The position numbers and the translations under genes are program-made. From a virus, in the IMG/VR virus record IMGVR_UViG_3300023210_003077, positions 90,020-154,019 of that record: 64,000 bases of DNA; one strand, given 5' to 3'. The notes beneath the pieces are model-generated. The model made no database searches, was not told where the DNA came from, and saw only the letters and a list, made by a program, of their open reading frames with translations. Each line of letters starts with the position of its first letter. The first letter of the stretch is position 1. Below, in pieces: positions 21,256 to 52,495 of the stretch.

Positions 21256-21987
21256 TTAAACTAAATCAACTTCATCTATTAATGTATAAGTAAATTTATT
21301 ACCAGTGTGTGCTTTGAAATTATCACAAACATCCATCACAAACTCTTTATGTTCCCAATTAGAGAAAACTTGACAACCAGCAGACCATTTACCAATTTGT
21401 TTAGAAGGGTACTTTCTACCAGAACCATGAATATTTATACCAAATAAACCATTTTGTGTATTAGACTCATTCAAGTCATAATTATTATCTTTATCATTAT
21501 CTCTATAAACTGTTATCTTACCAGTTTGTCTTAATGCTCTATGACTAGGCTTTATGTGTTGTCCACGAGACCAACAATCTTCCCATTGACCAGGTTTAAG
21601 AACAGCTGATCCCATTTTATTCATAGGGTGGTTTAACCAATAAACCCCAGGGTTAGTTGTATTCGGAAATATTTTTAAATCTTCTTTTCCCTTCTTAGAT
21701 TCATATTGAGAAATAGCATAATCAGTATTTTTACCACTAACACCATCCTCCGATAATTTTCTACCATTGGCTCCTATAAATCCCCAATTATTTAAAAAAG
21801 ATTGTTTTTGTTTTAATGATAAAGTAGAAGGCATTTCTGGGATAGAATAAACCATACAGAAGAAATCATTAAACGAATCTGGTATATCTAATGTGGTTCT
21901 CACTCCTATCATATTAGGTCTATCTGTATACCATTTATATCCTTTGTTTTTCATAACCCTTTTAAGGTTTCCTATTGTTATACTCAT
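21256..21987 (-). CDS. L,D-transpeptidase-like (YkuD-type) cell-wall enzyme, stand-alone
   Basis: A 243-residue protein. Its C-terminal half contains FGINIHGSG (182-190) and WSAGCQVF (201-208), matching the H...S-x-G-C catalytic pattern of YkuD-like L,D-transpeptidases with H187 and C205 as candidate residues. An N-terminal segment (residues 1-110) contains IGVRT and NNWGFIGANG. The same domain, with FGINIHRS and WSKGCQVF, ends the baseplate spike gene at 48205. That points to peptidoglycan processing, probably an endolysin or wall-modifying enzyme. No signal peptide is seen, so release would need a holin or lysis. Confidence 0.6.
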   Translation of the reverse strand: MSITIGNLKRVMKNKGYKWYTDRPNMIGVRTTLDIPDSFNDFFCMVYSIPEMPSTLSLKQKQSFLNNWGFIGANGRKLSEDGVSGKNTDYAISQYESKKGKEDLKIFPNTTNPGVYWLNHPMNKMGSAVLKPGQWEDCWSRGQHIKPSHRALRQTGKITVYRDNDKDNNYDLNESNTQNGLFGINIHGSGRKYPSKQIGKWSAGCQVFSNWEHKEFVMDVCDNFKAHTGNKFTYTLIDEVDLV

Positions 21988-38713: not shown

Positions 38714-38790
38714 AATATAAAGCCACTTTACATACAATTTTACTAAACATTCACAACATTATAACATAAAACAAAAAAATAACTTTGATA

Positions 38791-39456
38791 ATGAATAACG
38801 ACAAAGATTTACAAAAATATCTACGTAGTAATAAAATAGGATCTAATTATAGTGATGACTACTTCAAGCAGATACAGAAAAATAATAACACACCAAACAT
38901 ATTAAGTAATAATGAAATACCAGTAGATGTATTCTCTAAATTATTAGATGATAGAATAATATTTCTTTCAACACAAATAGATGATTATGTATGTAACATA
39001 ATAAAAGCTCAACTTCTATACTTAGAATCCCAAAGTGATGAAGATATATCTATATACATAGATACGGCAGGAGGTTCAGTTTATTCCGGATTAGGATTAT
39101 TGGATGTTATGGAGTTTGTTAAACCTGATATAATTACGGTTAATACCGGGTTAGCTGCTTCCATGGGAGCTATTATATTATGTTCTGGGACAAAAGGTAA
39201 AAGAAAATCACTAAAAAGAAGTAGAACTATGATACACCAACCACTTGGTGGTGGGTGGGCACAACAAGCATCTGATATAGAAATTGAAGCAAAACAAATT
39301 AACTCACTTAAAAAAGAATTATATGAGATAATATCAGATAGAACTGGTCAAACATATGATAGAGTTTATAAAGATGGTGATAGAGACTATTGGATGTCGG
39401 CCGCTGATTCTAAGAAATATGGTATGATAGATGAAATTTTAACAAAAAGGAAATAA
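38791..39456 (+). CDS. clpP: ClpP-like serine protease
   Basis: Start at the ATG 38791 (a TTG two codons upstream is also possible); 221 residues. ClpP landmarks: YIDTAGGSVYSGLGLLD (~89-105, oxyanion region), NTGLAASMGA (Ser124 nucleophile) and RTMIHQPLGGG (His149). The catalytic Asp probably lies near ~170-180 before YWMSAADSKKYGMIDEI. ClpP-family enzymes in phages act as head-maturation proteases or as modified cellular proteases. No ATPase partner is nearby. It may process the internal proteins with the shared motif, or work with a host Clp ATPase; this is inference. Confidence 0.82.
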   Translation: MNNDKDLQKYLRSNKIGSNYSDDYFKQIQKNNNTPNILSNNEIPVDVFSKLLDDRIIFLSTQIDDYVCNIIKAQLLYLESQSDEDISIYIDTAGGSVYSGLGLLDVMEFVKPDIITVNTGLAASMGAIILCSGTKGKRKSLKRSRTMIHQPLGGGWAQQASDIEIEAKQINSLKKELYEIISDRTGQTYDRVYKDGDRDYWMSAADSKKYGMIDEILTKRK

Positions 39457-43920: not shown

Positions 43921-46281
43921 ATGGGAATAGTTAAAGAGGTTAGAATTACAGGTGATATAATGGTCCGTGTGGTTGAGAATTTTAAAAATAACGGTAAACT
44001 TAAAAGCAGAATCGTTTATGGATTAACTCGATACGTTAATGATTATGATACCGGTCCTATTCTAGGTGAAGGGGATTATAAAGGTAATAGGTATAAAGAT
44101 ATGAGTTCCGATGAAATCATAGCTGATTGGTTGCATGTGAATTCGGCCTCGGGTAAAATACCCAAAGGCTCTGAAATAATACAGGACCCCTGGTCAGTAA
44201 ATATAGCTAGAAAAAGAAACTTCGGATCCGATTATTATCATTTAAATAATGGAACAAGGGTAGATATTAGATGGACATCACCAGACTTCGGCGCATCTTC
44301 TAGTCAGGTCGATGAAAATGGAGATACTACATACTTTGGGCGCACTGTTGGTCCATATACTATGTTGGGTGGTGAACAATGGAGTGATGATGAAGGTAAT
44401 GAATTAGCATTACCTGATGGTGTATCACCCACACAATCCTATTATAGTGATGGTAGTATTGGAGATGGTAATGGTTTGATAATTTATCAAAGTATCAAAT
44501 CTAGAATAATTAAGTCGGTAACCATACGGACTCCTAGTGACCCTTCTTTTGATCCACAATGGAAGACCGAAGAATCTGTTCTTTATATAACAGAGGATAA
44601 TTTATTAGAATTATCTACTAAGGTTGGATATGAAACGACTTATGACGATACTGGGAAATCTACCACAACAAAATTAGAGAAGCAAGAAAAGAAATATACT
44701 GGTAATGTTGATGATGTTGATATCATAAATGATATACTATCTGCTTGGAATAAAAAAGTACCTAATTATAATGTTGGTCAATGTGAGTTGATAGATCCAC
44801 AGGAAACATCACTCGGTAGGTGGCCAGCGAAGGATGGGAACACTAATAAAATATTTGGTAATGGTGTGGCTTGTAACATATATAACCCCGAAGGTGGTGG
44901 TAGATTGGGGGCGGCTAATTCAACACCTGCTAAAAGTGAAAAAGGTTTATATTATTCAGGAGAATTAGTAGAGTATAAAAGCCCCATAAAATTACTACCA
45001 GAAGAAGAAGTAGAAGAGCCCGCGCCTGTAATTACGGGTTCACAAAGCGGTGATGTAGAATCAAAAAAAAATATAATAACATTCAATGTTGAAATTGAGG
45101 GAGTGTTTCTTCCTTTATCAAGTGGAAGTGCAAGCGGCGGAACAACTAGTAACGATTCTCTCAAATCATATGAAGATTCTTTATCAATAATAGTAGATTC
45201 AAAAATTGGTAAATTAACACTAATCGAACCCGGTGGGTTTGTTTTCCAGGATGATTTTGAACAACTTGGTGAATTGGACGATGAGTACCGAGAAACTGCA
45301 TTCTTAGGTCAAGAGGAGGCAGAAGCAGAAGCAGCTGAGGAGCGGGATGAGGCGCGGGAACAGAATGGATCCAATGATCCAGACGCTGATCCAGCTACTG
45401 GTGAACCTCCTACACCAGCATCACCTAGTAACAACCAAACGAAACGACAGGCGATTTATATTTTGATGGAATTGTTAATCAAGGAGGGCGGGTTTACAAA
45501 AGACCAAGCAGCTGGTATCTGTGGTAATATCGATGCAGAATCAAGTTTTAAATTTTGGAATATTGAAAATCAAGCAAATTACATAGTACCCGGTGGGATG
45601 GGTGCAAAACGGTGGTCAAAAGAGAACGCAAAACAAGGATCAGTAAAACATTATACGTGTAAGAAAGGTAAATGTCAAGTATTCTCTGGTCTCGGCTTAG
45701 CTCAATGGACATATTCAAGGAGATATAACATGGAGAAATTTTGTGGTGAGTATCTAACTAACAAAGGAGTTAAGACTTCAGCTTTGAAGAATGGATTCCT
45801 TGATACAGATCCAAGACCACATGGAGGCGGAACTGTTAAGATTGGAAGAGATACTTTAAATAAACTCGAAGTATATTTGAAATCAGTGCCTTATTTATTT
45901 GAGGCACAATGTGCCTTTTTAATATCTGAATTGACTCAGAGCTCCGGTAAAGGAGGTAGAATTCAAAAAATGTTCGCTGGTATTCCATCTGGTAATTCAG
46001 CTAAGTTGATAAAGAATGGTACTTTTATCAACCAAAAGGGTGGTAAGCCAACACAAACAATAGGTGCTTATTGTGAAGCAATTTTATGTGACTTTGAGGT
46101 TCCTGGTTCAGTCGGCCGACCACTAAAGAAGCCTGATGCAATCTATAAAAACGGAGTATCCAATAGGGACTATTACAAACATCACGCTGGTGAAAGAATA
46201 AAGAAGTGTGAAGCTGCTTTAGCTACTTATAATGATGTTAGAGCCGAAAAAAATGGTACTGGTAAATACGCCCCTGCTTAA
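43921..46281 (+). CDS. Hub-associated tail lysozyme (muramidase) on a shared scaffold
   Basis: A 786-residue protein. The N-terminal ~480 residues are related to the minus-strand gene 50378-52495, e.g. RNFGSDYYHLNNGTRVDIRW here, and FVFQDDFEQLGELDDEY near 440. A linker rich in Glu/Ala/Pro follows (EEAEAEAAEERDEAREQ). The C-terminal ~280 residues are a tail-lysozyme-like domain: GGFTKDQAAGICGNIDAESSF with the catalytic-like Glu in ESSF, then GLGLAQWTYSRR. It probably cuts peptidoglycan locally during infection. No signal peptide, as expected for a virion enzyme. Confidence 0.7.
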   Translation: MGIVKEVRITGDIMVRVVENFKNNGKLKSRIVYGLTRYVNDYDTGPILGEGDYKGNRYKDMSSDEIIADWLHVNSASGKIPKGSEIIQDPWSVNIARKRNFGSDYYHLNNGTRVDIRWTSPDFGASSSQVDENGDTTYFGRTVGPYTMLGGEQWSDDEGNELALPDGVSPTQSYYSDGSIGDGNGLIIYQSIKSRIIKSVTIRTPSDPSFDPQWKTEESVLYITEDNLLELSTKVGYETTYDDTGKSTTTKLEKQEKKYTGNVDDVDIINDILSAWNKKVPNYNVGQCELIDPQETSLGRWPAKDGNTNKIFGNGVACNIYNPEGGGRLGAANSTPAKSEKGLYYSGELVEYKSPIKLLPEEEVEEPAPVITGSQSGDVESKKNIITFNVEIEGVFLPLSSGSASGGTTSNDSLKSYEDSLSIIVDSKIGKLTLIEPGGFVFQDDFEQLGELDDEYRETAFLGQEEAEAEAAEERDEAREQNGSNDPDADPATGEPPTPASPSNNQTKRQAIYILMELLIKEGGFTKDQAAGICGNIDAESSFKFWNIENQANYIVPGGMGAKRWSKENAKQGSVKHYTCKKGKCQVFSGLGLAQWTYSRRYNMEKFCGEYLTNKGVKTSALKNGFLDTDPRPHGGGTVKIGRDTLNKLEVYLKSVPYLFEAQCAFLISELTQSSGKGGRIQKMFAGIPSGNSAKLIKNGTFINQKGGKPTQTIGAYCEAILCDFEVPGSVGRPLKKPDAIYKNGVSNRDYYKHHAGERIKKCEAALATYNDVRAEKNGTGKYAPA

Positions 46282-46340: not shown

Positions 46341-48197
46341 ATGGGAGTATTCGACAAAATCACAGATTTAAAAGAGAAAATATCTAACTCAGCATCAAGT
46401 ATTATTGCTTTTGTGAGTAATCCTTGGCCACAAACATTAGTAAATCCCGATTTTTCAAAAACTTCTGGATTCTTACCACCAGTTTTGATACAACCATCAT
46501 TGTCTGTTTTTGGGAAGCAGCAAGAAGCTGTTAAAATTAAATATGGACAATATGAATATGAAGATTGGTTAGGTCAGAAAATAACACCAAATGGTTTAAT
46601 TGATTTAGATACTACGGATAGATTTAACGAAAGTAAAGATTTACCGAAATCAAGTGCAGATTTAGAAGATATCCCTTATTCCATGAGAGATCATTATATG
46701 ATATTTGATGATAATAAAACGGATTATTTTAAACACGGTTTACAAATAATTGATGGGTTAACACCAATTGAAAATTCAGAAGGTGCTTCTGATTTAAGAT
46801 TGAGTCAATTCAAAGCAACACCATTCGAAAATAATGATCCGGTTATGTATGGATTTGATTTAATAATTGATGGTATATCATCACCATTATTAAACGGATC
46901 TGTGATAGATTTTTTAAATCAATATAAGGGAATAAATGAAATGGCCGCTAGGATACCAGTATATGAGGATTTTAAGCAACAATTTTTGAAATTTTTCAAA
47001 ACAAAAGGAACATTAAGGATTGATCCAGAACAAACAACAATGAGTAATAGTGGTGTAAACTCAGCTAGTTTTGATAACTCGAAATCAATTTTTCAATTGG
47101 GTAAAAAAGCTTATATGGGTTATTATATACAAAAAATAACAGGTCTAAACTTCTTAGTAGAGAGTAATAAACCAGGAACATTAAAATATATTACTGATTA
47201 TAGAAAAGATGTCATAACATTAGACTTTTTGGAAGATGTTTCTTTGAGTGTTGGTACTTTAACACATCTTTATAAATTATTATATTGGTCTAAACCAAAT
47301 GGTAAGGGAATGATTCCTGAGAATCTATTGAGATTTAATTGTGATATAGTAGTTTCGGAATGTAGAAATTTTAACAGGGTTAGAAAAGCAGTAGAGACTG
47401 GTAATTTAGAAATAATAAAGGATAATGTATCTAGATATGTTTATTCTCTAAGAGAATGTCAATTCTTTTTTGACCAACTACCTCACCCAGCTCAGATAGA
47501 CATGGGTAGTATTGCTGCGCAAGGCACAACACCAGTAACATTTGATTATAAATACTCAGCCGTTAAATTTGAAAAGTTTGTACCAACCGGTGATGGTTTT
47601 GGTAGCTATGTTGGTTATGATAGTGGTGCTATTTGGAAAATTGGTAACCCAGGAGCAAGAGGAACACAATCAGTTGGAGACACATCAATACCAAATTTCT
47701 TCACAGTTGGTAAAAATAAGTTAAGAGAAAATGGTGTTGAATCACCATTTGTTTTAAAAAGTATAAATAAATTAGGAACAACAGAAATTATACTGGCTCC
47801 TGAAGTCCTAACCGCTGATGATCCACCGAGTGATGGGGAAAGTTTAGAAGGAGATAAGAAAGCATCTAAAGGAAAGGCTAAAGCTGCGGCAAAAAAAGCT
47901 AAGGATAGATTGGTATCATCTGCTAAAAAAGAATTACAAGGTGTTATAAACACAAAAGCACAATTATTAGCCAGAACATTAAATAAAGCAGCAATATCAT
48001 TACAGGGAGGTACGATACCACCACCCAAAAATATATATGAGCTTGGCCCAGGAGAACAAGGTTCATTATTGAATGCTGGTAGTAATGTGTCACAAAGATT
48101 TTTCTATGATGTAAGGGGTGATTTAGTTGGGTTTTTAGGAGACTCATTGGGTGGTGCAGTTGGTGGTGGATTCTCTAATGGCGGTCAAAGAAGATAA
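46341..48197 (+). CDS. Baseplate-tube junction protein (gp48/gp54-like, tentative)
   Basis: A 618-residue protein. The central region (YSLRECQFFFDQLPHPAQID, then VTFDYKYSAVKFEKF) has the look of tube-initiator/baseplate junction proteins (gp48/gp54). An Ala/Lys-rich coiled-coil part (KKASKGKAKAAAKKAKDRLV, ~510-535) and a Gly-rich end (GGAVGGGFSNGGQRR) follow. It lies between hub lysozyme and spike. A similar-size gene of this sort (53058-54878, minus) could be the partner. Family call is weak; no membrane segment. Confidence 0.45.
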   Translation: MGVFDKITDLKEKISNSASSIIAFVSNPWPQTLVNPDFSKTSGFLPPVLIQPSLSVFGKQQEAVKIKYGQYEYEDWLGQKITPNGLIDLDTTDRFNESKDLPKSSADLEDIPYSMRDHYMIFDDNKTDYFKHGLQIIDGLTPIENSEGASDLRLSQFKATPFENNDPVMYGFDLIIDGISSPLLNGSVIDFLNQYKGINEMAARIPVYEDFKQQFLKFFKTKGTLRIDPEQTTMSNSGVNSASFDNSKSIFQLGKKAYMGYYIQKITGLNFLVESNKPGTLKYITDYRKDVITLDFLEDVSLSVGTLTHLYKLLYWSKPNGKGMIPENLLRFNCDIVVSECRNFNRVRKAVETGNLEIIKDNVSRYVYSLRECQFFFDQLPHPAQIDMGSIAAQGTTPVTFDYKYSAVKFEKFVPTGDGFGSYVGYDSGAIWKIGNPGARGTQSVGDTSIPNFFTVGKNKLRENGVESPFVLKSINKLGTTEIILAPEVLTADDPPSDGESLEGDKKASKGKAKAAAKKAKDRLVSSAKKELQGVINTKAQLLARTLNKAAISLQGGTIPPPKNIYELGPGEQGSLLNAGSNVSQRFFYDVRGDLVGFLGDSLGGAVGGGFSNGGQRR

Positions 48198-48204
48198 GAA
48201 TATA

Positions 48205-49749
48205 ATGAATAAAGTAGAAGCTAACAAAACATATATAGGTGTTGTCGAAGACAATGCAGATCCTAAGAAACTCGGGAGAGTTAAAGTTAGGGTTATGGAT
48301 ATTTTTGATGAAATGAAGCTAGAGGATTTACCCTGGGCTACACCATGGAAAGATATAAATGGTAATGAATTTAATGTACCAGAAAAGGGTAAAGTTTTAA
48401 TTGTTGTTTTTGACCAAGGTGATGAATATAAACCAGAATTCATATTCTCAGATCACTACAATGTAAATTTAGAAAAGAAGTTAGAATCTTTAGATGGTGA
48501 TAATTATAAATCGATGAAGTCTTTGATTTTTGATCACAAAACACAAATTTATGTTAATGATGATGAAGGACTTAAAATAGACTATAAGTATAATAATATT
48601 AATATAACAGAAGATACAATTGATTTAAATCTTAAAGATAATAATAGAGATGTTAATATTGGGGATGCTGGTGCTTCACAACAAGCTATATTAGGTAATC
48701 ATTGGATGGATTGGTTTGATGAGTTTGTGGATAACCTATTGGGTAGCAAAGCCGGTCCTTATTTAGGAAACTTGGGAGCTCCGGTTGTACCAAATCCAGA
48801 AATGATATCAGTTCTATTAAAATATAAATCTTTGAGAGATCCGGTCTTTCTATCACATCACGTTAATATAGTAGATAATAATAAAGTAACTGCTGTTAGA
48901 TGCCACTCTTTCCCTGAAAGACAAGATGATCCACAAGTAGGGGATGCTTGGGATTCAACAAAGGGTCCAGAAGAAGTAGGAGGAATTGAAAATGATATGA
49001 CAGCTAAAACTGATGAAGATTTCAAACCTCTAGATGGTCCTAAGCAAGAATATGATGAAGATTATGTTGCACCAGCAACGGATGGAGAACCGGACGATGT
49101 ACCAGCAGAAAACACAAATCCACCAATAGATCTGACATCAACAGAATCTAATGAGGAAGTAAATAAGTGGGTAAGGTTTATGCAATCAAAGGGTTATGTG
49201 GTTTATGACCAAGTTGGTATGATGAATATAGTTGGTATTAGAACTAAAGATGATGGAACCGTTTCGAATAAATTTGATGATACTATTTATGTTTTCTTTA
49301 AAAATGTGAATAACACATGGATATCGATGGAATATAATGTAACTACAACTCCAGGTTTTATACCGAAGACTAAGAAGTTACCGAAAAATGTTGCTGTGTT
49401 AGCACTTGGTCAATATATCGATCAATATAAGATAGGATTACACCAGGGTAAAAAAGATCATAAATGTCTAAAATACGCCAAGAGTATAGTACACAGAAAT
49501 GATAAAGATGGAGCATATAACTTCAAAGCTAGTACAGAAGAAGGATCATTTGGTATAAATATACACAGATCTAGTAAAGGTGGTAGTTCTAATAATGTTT
49601 ATAACTGGTCGAAAGGCTGTCAGGTATTTAAGAAATCTAGACAATTTAAACAGTTTATGAATAATTGTGAAAATCAAGTAAAAGTTACAAATAAAGATAC
49701 CTTTACATACACACTTATCAGAAAAAGTGATTTCGATAAATTTATATAA
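48205..49749 (+). CDS. Baseplate spike, gp5-like OB domain with L,D-transpeptidase-like C-terminus
   Basis: The start at ATG 48205 is preferred (7 nt after the upstream stop; earlier in-frame starts overlap the previous gene); 514 residues. The N-terminal NKTYIGVVEDNADPKKLGRV, then VKVRVMDIF and LPWATPWKDINGNEFNVPEKG, match the OB-fold of T4 gp5. A Pro/Asp-rich linker (~280-310) leads to a C-terminal ~180-residue domain ending FGINIHRSSKG and WSKGCQVF, the YkuD-like pattern, closely similar to the stand-alone enzyme 21256-21987. T4 gp5 carries a lysozyme domain here; this phage has replaced it with another wall-acting fold. Confidence 0.65.
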   Translation: MNKVEANKTYIGVVEDNADPKKLGRVKVRVMDIFDEMKLEDLPWATPWKDINGNEFNVPEKGKVLIVVFDQGDEYKPEFIFSDHYNVNLEKKLESLDGDNYKSMKSLIFDHKTQIYVNDDEGLKIDYKYNNINITEDTIDLNLKDNNRDVNIGDAGASQQAILGNHWMDWFDEFVDNLLGSKAGPYLGNLGAPVVPNPEMISVLLKYKSLRDPVFLSHHVNIVDNNKVTAVRCHSFPERQDDPQVGDAWDSTKGPEEVGGIENDMTAKTDEDFKPLDGPKQEYDEDYVAPATDGEPDDVPAENTNPPIDLTSTESNEEVNKWVRFMQSKGYVVYDQVGMMNIVGIRTKDDGTVSNKFDDTIYVFFKNVNNTWISMEYNVTTTPGFIPKTKKLPKNVAVLALGQYIDQYKIGLHQGKKDHKCLKYAKSIVHRNDKDGAYNFKASTEEGSFGINIHRSSKGGSSNNVYNWSKGCQVFKKSRQFKQFMNNCENQVKVTNKDTFTYTLIRKSDFDKFI

Positions 49750-49787: not shown

Positions 49788-50042
49788 ATGGTAAATCCTT
49801 CATATCTAATAAACATATCTTATAGTCCATCTCATCTTAGTGGACAACAACTCGTAAATGTTGGTGGTGTAACATCATCAGTAAACACATATGGACCTGC
49901 TTGTTTCGTTGCTGGTATGCCGGAAGTTAATTTATCCGCTACTGGATCAACATATGAATTAGCTTTAGATAATTTATTAATACTTGTGGATGCAGCTCCT
50001 AACCCAGTAAATGGACCTTTAAGTTCTATCAGAACTTGGTAA
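49788..50042 (+). CDS. Small tandem-duplicated protein, copy 1 (HicB-like pattern)
   Basis: An 84-residue protein (MVNPSYLINISYSPSHL) and its neighbour are ~60% alike. The stretch MPEVNLSATGSTYELALDNLLILVDAAP resembles the HicB-type PEhxGxGxTxEEALxN pattern of antitoxin-like domains, but no toxin partner is present, so that is weak evidence. It lies between the spike and the C39-type hub gene, so a small baseplate or fibre role is equally possible. An AT-rich promoter-like region precedes it. Confidence 0.55.
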   Translation: MVNPSYLINISYSPSHLSGQQLVNVGGVTSSVNTYGPACFVAGMPEVNLSATGSTYELALDNLLILVDAAPNPVNGPLSSIRTW

Positions 50043-50063: not shown

Positions 50064-50282
50064 ATGGTAAATCCTACATATCTAATAAACATACATTATC
50101 AACCATCCGGACTTGCTACTTCAGGAAGAAACGATCCCGGATTATTCATTGCTATTATGCCGGAAGTTAATTTATCCGCTACCGGAACAACATATGAATT
50201 AGCTTTATCTAATTTATTAGTACTTGTAGATGCAGCTCCTAACTCAGGAAATACACCTTTAAGTTCTATCAGAACTTGGTAA
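50064..50282 (+). CDS. Small tandem-duplicated protein, copy 2
   Basis: A 72-residue paralogue of the previous gene. The two share MVNPxYLINI at the start, MPEVNLSATGxTYELAL in the middle, and PLSSIRTW at the end; copy 2 lacks ~12 residues after residue 15. The DNA of the two copies is also nearly identical in these parts, so the duplication is recent. It begins 21 nt after copy 1. Function unknown. Confidence 0.55.
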   Translation: MVNPTYLINIHYQPSGLATSGRNDPGLFIAIMPEVNLSATGTTYELALSNLLVLVDAAPNSGNTPLSSIRTW

Positions 50283-50377: not shown

Positions 50378-52495
50378 TTATGCCTTATAACATTCAAAGT
50401 AATAACCTTTACAAGTACTCAACGTGGAATCTAAATATACAATACCCTTTTTGGATTTATTACCAGGATCACTTACCCAAAATTTACCATCTCTAAATTC
50501 GGATATCACCATATAATGACCACCATACTTCTTCTTACCACCCGTTTTGTTGTAACCTGATCCTTGCCTACATTGCCATATAACTGGATTTCCACTTTTA
50601 ATTCTAGAAATCGCTTGCTCCTTACTGACTTTCCGTAATTTAAAACCGAATAACGAAGATAGTGTGTCATTACATTTTTTTTCTACTGTACGCATGGCAG
50701 TACCGCTACATGGTGGACCAGGTCGAGCACTGATAGCTAGATCACATATCATTTTTGCTGTTTTTACAGGGGATGTATAAACTCCTTTACCATTCCTTTT
50801 TGCCCAGTAATTACTAACCATAGCCAAACTAGTAGGACCACACCCACCACCTCCAATTCCGGAATACCCTTTATCCCCACTTCTATGATCACATTGTATC
50901 TTATAACTACTTCCTTTAAAATTAACAGTATATAGCTTACCTGAAGAACCTCTTGAAAGCGCTGGTAAGATTTCATCCTCTATAAACTGTTTTTCCTTCG
51001 ATAATCCAAATATGACATAATTCCATCTAGTATCATATTGGAAATAATAAGGTACTTTATTATTCTGAAAGGTGCTATCGGATGATTGACGGGGCTCAGA
51101 GCACGTAAAATCACCAGTTGATATTACAGCGGAAGGAGGTCCAGTATTATCAACTTTAGCAACCTCCATATTTTCTTCAACCTCTTCTGGTGTATTTATC
51201 ACCTCTTGACTTCCTTCAAAATCAGACTCCATATATTCAGGATCCAACTCTTCTAGATTATCAAAATCATCCTGGAAAACAAAACCATCTGATGGTGGAT
51301 CACCTATATAAACTTTAACCTCATCTAAATCTTCTTTAACCTTCAACTCGAAATCTTCCGGTAAAACAACACTCAGTTTAATCTTTGGTGTGCCCTGTGT
51401 TTGTACAGATTCTTCGTTTGGTGTAGGTTCCGGTTCTTTTGGTTCTATTTGTATAGGACTTCTATACTCAACCTCATTACAAGAAAAGTGTTTAGGTAAA
51501 TCCTTACCTTTGGTATTCCCATAGTCCTTATAACAAACATCAAGTGCATCATAATCAGCAACCTTTTTTTTCCAAATAGTCAAGATAGACTCGAGTATTT
51601 CCACATCGAGTATTTCCCCATCTATTTCAAACCCATATTGTTTTTCTATTTCTCCTGTGAAGGGGCCCACGAAATCTGTCATATTCTCCTCAAGTGTGAA
51701 TTTCTCACCGGATTCTTTATGCTCTATCAAGACATATTTCTTTATATCACATTTCTTATATTCTATAATATTTAACGGGTCTTCATATGTATTATCAGAT
51801 TCAATATATAATCCATAAATTTGACCCCAAGCAGCCTTGTCATCATATGTATTACCCTCACTAAATATACCCTCACCATTTGTATCTCTGGTATTTCGTA
51901 ATTTCTCTCGACCATTAGGAAGACTCCAAAGAGCACCACCTGACCACACACCCTCTGTACCTCCAAATGTCGCCCGAAGTTCGAAATTCCCAGTTACCGC
52001 ATTAACTGAGTTAACTGCTTCAGTTTGTGCATAAGTTTTACTAAACTCCAATCTAGATATAGATTGTTTATCACCTATAAACCAAAATATACTGACTTTA
52101 GTTTGATTATTTAAATAATATGGATCATTACCAAAAGATCTATACAATGGGGGATTTTGCTCAAAGGGATTTTGTATTATCTCATAATATTGATCATCAC
52201 CAAATAATTTATAATCATTAACATCAACGATAGAAGAATTTCCTCCAAGTTTAATCTTAGTTGCTTGATAAATCACAGCATGTATAAAGTTTTCAGCAGT
52301 GTATAATTCATATTTGCCTTTCTTTTTAAATTCCGTAACATATCCGTATCCACCCTTAGGAATCCAAGCGACTTTATATTTTTTACCACCCTCATGAATA
52401 ACACGAACCTCTATATCACCCAACCCTGAGTGCCTCTCATCTAGATTTGTATTAATTGCTCTAACTCTTACTGATACATCCGGTTCTTTAGCCAT
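50378..52495 (-). CDS. Hub-scaffold protein with C39-like cysteine peptidase domain
   Basis: A 705-residue protein. The N-terminal ~480 residues are paralogous to 43921-46281 (RSFGNDPYYLNNQTKVSIFW; WKKKVADYDALDVC; FVFQDDFDNLEELDPEY). The C-terminal domain begins ~500 with VPYYFQYDTRWNYVIFG and has GGGGCGPTSLAMVSNYW with the candidate nucleophile C552, then GGHYMVISEF with H660 and SDPGNK with D676, a papain/C39-type triad. It would cut peptide cross-links in peptidoglycan or process proteins. The scaffold is shared with the lysozyme gene, but the enzyme is different. Confidence 0.65.
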   Translation of the reverse strand: MAKEPDVSVRVRAINTNLDERHSGLGDIEVRVIHEGGKKYKVAWIPKGGYGYVTEFKKKGKYELYTAENFIHAVIYQATKIKLGGNSSIVDVNDYKLFGDDQYYEIIQNPFEQNPPLYRSFGNDPYYLNNQTKVSIFWFIGDKQSISRLEFSKTYAQTEAVNSVNAVTGNFELRATFGGTEGVWSGGALWSLPNGREKLRNTRDTNGEGIFSEGNTYDDKAAWGQIYGLYIESDNTYEDPLNIIEYKKCDIKKYVLIEHKESGEKFTLEENMTDFVGPFTGEIEKQYGFEIDGEILDVEILESILTIWKKKVADYDALDVCYKDYGNTKGKDLPKHFSCNEVEYRSPIQIEPKEPEPTPNEESVQTQGTPKIKLSVVLPEDFELKVKEDLDEVKVYIGDPPSDGFVFQDDFDNLEELDPEYMESDFEGSQEVINTPEEVEENMEVAKVDNTGPPSAVISTGDFTCSEPRQSSDSTFQNNKVPYYFQYDTRWNYVIFGLSKEKQFIEDEILPALSRGSSGKLYTVNFKGSSYKIQCDHRSGDKGYSGIGGGGCGPTSLAMVSNYWAKRNGKGVYTSPVKTAKMICDLAISARPGPPCSGTAMRTVEKKCNDTLSSLFGFKLRKVSKEQAISRIKSGNPVIWQCRQGSGYNKTGGKKKYGGHYMVISEFRDGKFWVSDPGNKSKKGIVYLDSTLSTCKGYYFECYKA

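Follow-up and report, generated by a model that had tools for sequence, protein, structure and literature searches.

In this study, we report that the C-terminal domain of a spike protein encoded by a huge-phage relative is, by remote similarity, L,D-transpeptidase-like, and that related spikes have lost its nucleophile more than once outside the immediate lineage of this phage, with the domain itself retained. The explanation we favour, at a probability of about one half, is that the domain is a wall-docking module which is probably still catalytic in the phage studied here. The window, i.e. the whole stretch of 64,000 nucleotides that was analysed, covers positions 90020-154019 at the right-hand end of the virus record IMGVR_UViG_3300023210_003077, which is 154 kb long. 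Coordinates of the features are listed in Table 1.

Table 1. Features of the spike region, of the free-standing lysin and of corresponding loci in relatives (L-numbers denote loci in other contigs)
Feature	Position	Strand	Remarks
Free-standing lysin, same domain	21256..21987	-	243 aa; His187 and Cys205 intact
Helical insert of lysin, putative peptidoglycan-binding domain	~21688..21840	-	PG_binding_1 at E=0.18 only
Tail protein ending in Phage_lysozyme2	43921..46281	+	N-terminal part common with 50378-52495
Upstream neighbour of spike, conserved synteny	46341..48197	+	70% to L006:6078-7994, 38% to L007:6201-7955
Spike gene	48205..49749	+	514 aa, ATG start; Pfam Phage_base_V, PHROG, alignment with relatives
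OB fold, PF04717 Phage_base_V	48232..48435	+	E=4.9e-8; residues 28-95 of the GTG-frame ORF
Conserved trunk, beta-helix-like by inspection	48502..48900	+	After OB fold, no lysozyme inserted
Acidic linker, low conservation	48901..49119	+	Alignment; composition from sequence
C-terminal phrog_3000 / L,D-transpeptidase-like domain	49120..49746	+	~205 aa; catalytically intact by sequence
Putative catalytic His codon (CAC)	49564..49566	+	Within FGINIHRS
Putative catalytic Cys codon (TGT)	49618..49620	+	Within WSKGCQVF; Ser/Ala in most other spikes
Small conserved ORF, copy 1	49788..50042	+	84 aa; directly 3' of spike
Small conserved ORF, tandem copy 2	50064..50282	+	72 aa; 64% identical to copy 1
Tail protein ending in Peptidase_C39_2	50378..52495	-	634-kb counterpart ends M15-like
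Corresponding tail proteins in relatives	L006:4757-6052, L006:9827-11440, L007:3507-6158		
Split spike loci	L211:3968-7298, L212:3986-7607, L214:3968-6946, L217:3962-8050		

The spike ORF is genuine. Its longest frame opens at a GTG (48151), but the gene upstream stops at 48197, just ahead of the ATG at 48205; this ATG, also the start given in the sequence-only reading, matches the start positions of the spike relatives in alignment. The claim that the protein is a gp5-like spike was borne out by its OB domain, which scored 33.6 bits against the PF04717 cut-off of 23.8 and so places it with the gp5/VgrG-type proteins. PHROG matches to baseplate hub and tail lysozyme were restricted to the N-terminus, and neither Pfam nor PHROG returned a lysozyme domain anywhere in the spike. 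The trunk is repetitive and strand-like on inspection of its sequence, and alignment showed it to be strongly conserved among huge-phage spikes, including that of LR756501 (735 kb). Homology of the C-terminal domain begins ahead of the two catalytic motifs and takes in its N-terminal part, GYxxY...NIVGxR...FDD; the AF2 model of the domain reached a pLDDT of 93.1 and a pTM of 0.89. The gene probably encodes the central spike of a huge phage with a contractile tail, a relative of the 634-642 kb phages.

A search of the record itself located the domain in exactly two places, the spike and the free-standing lysin, which carries FGINIHGS and WSAGCQVF on the minus strand. Pairwise alignment of the two domains gave 53/135 identical residues (39% over 135 aa, E=5e-18), and both matched the PHROG 3000 profile well enough to be counted as members (spike 6.4e-22, 39-203/209; lysin 9e-28, 64-200/209); the family is annotated as being of unknown function. 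Judged from these matches the spike domain and the lysin are homologous, as had been claimed from the shared motifs. The lysin model reached a pLDDT of 96.4. Its insert, with helices at 58-67 and 86-98 in the model, corresponds to an alignment gap in all spikes.

The sequence-only reading had called the domain YkuD-like. No match to YkuD (PF03734) above the curated cut-off was obtained in the window, and 3 of 71 relatives gave sub-threshold matches (best E=0.0088). The window sequence runs H-x14-S-K-G-C, in which His and Cys are present; compared with the L,D-transpeptidase catalytic motif, HXX(14-17)(S/T)HGC (PMC9638812), its spacing is shorter and it lacks the second His. NCBIfam gave no meaningful match, PADLOC gave none, and direct sequence search against solved L,D-transpeptidases (LDTs) returned spurious matches only, e.g. 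nanobodies. Alignment with host L,D-transpeptidases was too remote for tree placement, and a profile comparison took its place, the YkuD sequences being drawn from Bacteroidota and from a single Desulfonema genome. The spike family matched these at P 0.0008-0.0017 with the His and Cys motifs in register. Its scores were 26-29, whereas 60 column-shuffled controls reached at most 16-19 and reversed ones about 10; against the long SHGC subset alone there was no clear match (P 0.03-0.05). When the spike domain model was compared with the PDB in Foldseek, the first 13 places were all taken by LDTs, yet the matches were weak (E 0.025-0.14, TM 0.12-0.26), while the lysin model had no convincing LDT match in the PDB (best LDT E=1.2). 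A possible bridge through DUF5675, suggested by a weak viral Foldseek match, was rejected: this domain is absent from the window record and occurred once in the 12 genomes searched.

The domain is named L,D-transpeptidase-like, and not a YkuD member, since no family cut-off was passed, the motif departs and the relation to the YkuD superfamily, supported as it is by the profile comparison, is remote only. Of the YkuD-like assignment, then, the distant LDT relation survives (profile P ~0.001) and membership in the YkuD family does not. It is unlikely that the domain is an independent fold carrying a chance H...SxGC motif. The missing Pfam match, the weak Foldseek E-values, the short spacing and the lost second His would all suit such a fold; against it stand a profile score above every shuffled and reversed control, with the motifs in register, and the best structural matches of the spike domain, which are LDTs throughout.

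The state of the catalytic residues was compared across 61 spike loci in viral contigs, fetched by trunk patterns, and across 80 free-standing domain loci each from viral and from bacterial contigs, fetched with the pattern FGIN[IM]H, which conditions on the His and leaves the Cys unconstrained. Among 27 distinct spikes with a whole domain, Cys is kept in seven (the window, LR756502, L186, L190, L196, L207 and L209) and replaced by Ser or Ala in the other 20, a proportion free of any motif-selection effect since the spikes were fetched by their trunks. At the His position, LR745206 has Ile and L191 has Arg. Conservation of His and Cys in relatives, on which the YkuD-like claim had been staked, therefore holds in part: the nucleophile is gone from most spikes but kept in the window. 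Of the 159 free-standing copies that could be evaluated, 158 had the Cys, which supports calling PHROG 3000 an LDT-like lysin family and supplies exact residues for testing. The separate lysin, located without any motif requirement, was intact in every case read among records with Cys-less or split spikes (L246-L250 and LR745206). Across relatives the spike domain is thus, by its residues, mostly a predicted pseudoenzyme.

The domain has nevertheless been held under constraint. The residues flanking the Cys, S164 and G166, are invariant in 71/71 aligned members, the dead ones included, and dN/dS of dead-domain pairs was ~0-0.16 within dead clades; a single comparison of wider scope gave 0.31. 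At least two Cys losses are required on the domain tree and three on the trunk tree; since two would suffice on the former, the dead sequences, numerous as they are, do not each count as a separate loss. Sequencing error is an improbable source of the losses, as the same Ser and Ala states recur across many records and samples, and in L006 the His site is altered too.

Many spikes continue beyond the domain. A further C-terminal extension, 38-284 aa in length, is present in 19 of the 20 Cys-less spikes versus one of the seven intact ones (Fisher p=1.6e-4, with three independent contrasts); L006 is Cys-less and has no extension. With only three such contrasts the association is a lead and not a result; they are too few for it to reach significance once phylogeny is corrected for. 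The extensions of dead spikes had no Pfam domain over the cut-off and gave marginal matches to PHROG families of unknown function. Between L202 and L208, the trunk is 98% and the domain 91% identical, but the extensions are unrelated (30%), which points to recent exchange at the extreme C-terminus of the spike.

Four further loci (L211, L212, L214 and L217) have a split domain: the spike stops after the N-terminal third of the domain, and the rest of the domain, with Ser in place of Cys, is encoded by the adjacent next gene. The four group together on the trunk tree (96/76). L211 and L214 have an OmpA domain at the C-terminal end of this second product (E=1.5e-23 and 9e-22); OmpA (PF00691) is a peptidoglycan-binding family.

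Related trunks bear heads of other kinds. VanY/M15 heads were found in L225, L232 and L238 (Pfam E 1e-12 to 3e-15), and matches below the cut-off indicated CHAP heads in L218 and L224 (E 2e-4 to 3e-4) and an M15_3 head in L236 (0.003). By inspection L223 was grouped with CHAP, and L234, L240 and L243 with VanY; the head of L228, without a Pfam match, looked C39-like by inspection only. Several related trunks are headless. By these assignments the domain is shown to occupy the place where related trunks carry other predicted cell-wall enzymes. The same trunk, with spike C-termini of other types, was also seen at L231:3971-5308 and L009:7977-9458.

A similar pattern holds for two further proteins beside the spike, which share N-terminal parts between phages and differ in their C-terminal enzymes: lysozyme2 and C39 in the window, CHAP/amidase-like and M15-like in the 634-kb phage (both below the cut-off), and endolysin/GH19-like in the 642-kb phage. 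The upstream neighbour of the spike had no match in Pfam or PHROG that would give it a function; it is the probable hub. The small ORF that follows the spike is present as one copy at the same place in about 14 further spike loci. A ClpP-type protease gene (38785-39456, plus strand; PF00574, E=1e-64) lies upstream of the tail cluster.

LR745206 (634 kb) and LR756502 (642 kb) each carry both the spike and the lysin gene, full-length. The spike is about 72-73% identical to that of LR745206 and about 65-66% to that of LR756502; for the lysin the values are 81% and 49%. Genomes of >634 kb have been placed in the Mahaphage clade, with Bacteroidetes as predicted hosts (PMC7162821), and a Mahaphage-type affinity was found here for the tail genes only, which have homologues in, and are syntenic with, the 634- and 642-kb genomes. 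The spike of LR756501 stops after the trunk and a 636-kb spike has another C-terminus. On the domain tree, a branch supported at 98/93 has all 25 of 25 spike domains to one side of it, and the huge-phage lysins nest among the free-standing proteins. The fusion is thus read from the tree as old and single, the domain having joined the spike lineage once, long ago, and the phage's own lysin is no recent donor, as homologues of both genes occur in both phages and the tree divides the two kinds.

This history bears on the proposal that the domain had recently been shuffled between lysin and tail within this phage, which we now consider very improbable. The shared domain is what it had in its favour, but at 39% identity the two copies are far apart; both genes predate the split from the 634- and 642-kb phages, the 98/93 branch separates them, and the lysin insert is missing from all spikes. 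Exchange of heads among these phages is hinted at, not strongly, by a conflict between trees: the trunk tree makes L006 the sister of the window (99/89), a placement against which the domain tree gives a p-AU of 0.034.

The favoured wall-docking explanation would run as follows. An ancestral fusion would have placed a peptidoglycan-recognising enzyme on the spike, and selection would since have kept the docking of the spike tip on the stem peptides of the wall. Catalysis would be optional, as neighbouring baseplate proteins (in the window those with lysozyme2 and C39) presumably cut. With its His and Cys present, the window domain would probably act on L,D bonds at entry, as a carboxypeptidase or endopeptidase, or may alternatively hold the wall as an acyl-enzyme, while the separate lysin would act at lysis. 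The pattern of constraint suggests that the lasting job of the domain is gripping the wall rather than cutting it. A little more tentatively, we propose that in the spikes of a large group of huge phages an enzyme domain turned into a pseudoenzyme wall anchor, that in one lineage its two separately encoded halves would have to come together again at the spike tip, the second having gained OmpA, and that the phage studied here, its active site retained, would be a living intermediate.

Two other functions were weighed against docking. The domain may be an active entry hydrolase that functionally replaces the T4 gp5 lysozyme, the Cys losses in relatives being neutral decay after other enzymes took over; we consider this rather improbable, though it ranks ahead of the remaining alternatives. 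In its favour are the seven spikes with His and Cys intact, the known hydrolase heads on related trunks and the swapped hydrolases in the neighbouring proteins. Decay should however relax the whole domain, and the dead domains are under purifying selection, keep the residues around the lost Cys invariant and persist even when split. Less likely again is that the domain is purely a structural mount, serving only to trimerise the tip of the spike or to cap it, and in many phages to hold out a variable extension towards the host surface. The distribution of extensions over dead and intact spikes, and the divergence of the extension between the otherwise near-identical L202 and L208, speak for a mount; the Cys-less L006 lacks an extension, the independent contrasts are few, and the wall-binding partners of OmpA type in the split form indicate contact with the wall.

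Enzyme heads on spikes have precedents, as do wall-binding domains, and none of the components (PHROG 3000, OB spikes, enzyme-bearing spikes, OmpA domains) is of a new kind; an LDT-like spike head that is repeatedly nucleophile-less, and split in one lineage, was not found in the titles and abstracts of a partial literature search. Since active and nucleophile-less forms occur side by side in close relatives, they allow one to ask directly if a huge-phage spike must cut the wall or only hold it. PHROG 3000 is common in Bacteroidota phages, including crAss-like ones, and the varied heads on one trunk form a natural catalogue of spike-tip enzymes.

Compared with the PHROG 3000 proteins of crAss-like and other Bacteroidota phages, the window domain shares most of its length, the His and Cys motifs and a C-terminal FTYTL. 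Those proteins stand alone at ~200 aa, whereas the domain described here is appended to a spike trunk, on which the nucleophile is often lost. The OmpA-like PF00691 domain, which L211 and L214 carry on the detached half of their dead domain, is absent from the window spike. With the YkuD LDTs (PF03734, including LdtMt2) the domain has in common the order His...S-x-G-C, followed in the model by strand-helix-strand, and a remote similarity in profile and fold; it differs in falling below the family cut-offs, in the shorter H-to-S spacing, in having no SHGC and in an N-terminal part of ~70 aa of its own. The Tlde1 effectors of type VI secretion systems have an altered LD-transpeptidase fold (PMC9638812) and provide a case of a wall-directed LDT-like enzyme of a contractile injection machine, to which the window domain has a weak, sub-threshold match (Tlde1_dom, Pfam E=0.05). 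Tlde1 is a loaded effector, whereas the window domain is part of the spike.

With T4 gp5 and VgrG (PF04717) the window spike shares the OB domain, a conserved trunk and its location in a tail cluster. In T4 gp5 the lysozyme sits between the OB fold and the needle. The window spike is unlike it in having no lysozyme between OB fold and trunk and in bearing its wall-enzyme-like domain at the C-terminus, after the trunk; the description of this domain as standing in place of lysozyme is accordingly right as to the missing lysozyme and wrong as to position, the domain being a C-terminal appendage. Such C-terminal placement is that of the 'evolved' VgrG proteins of type VI secretion systems.
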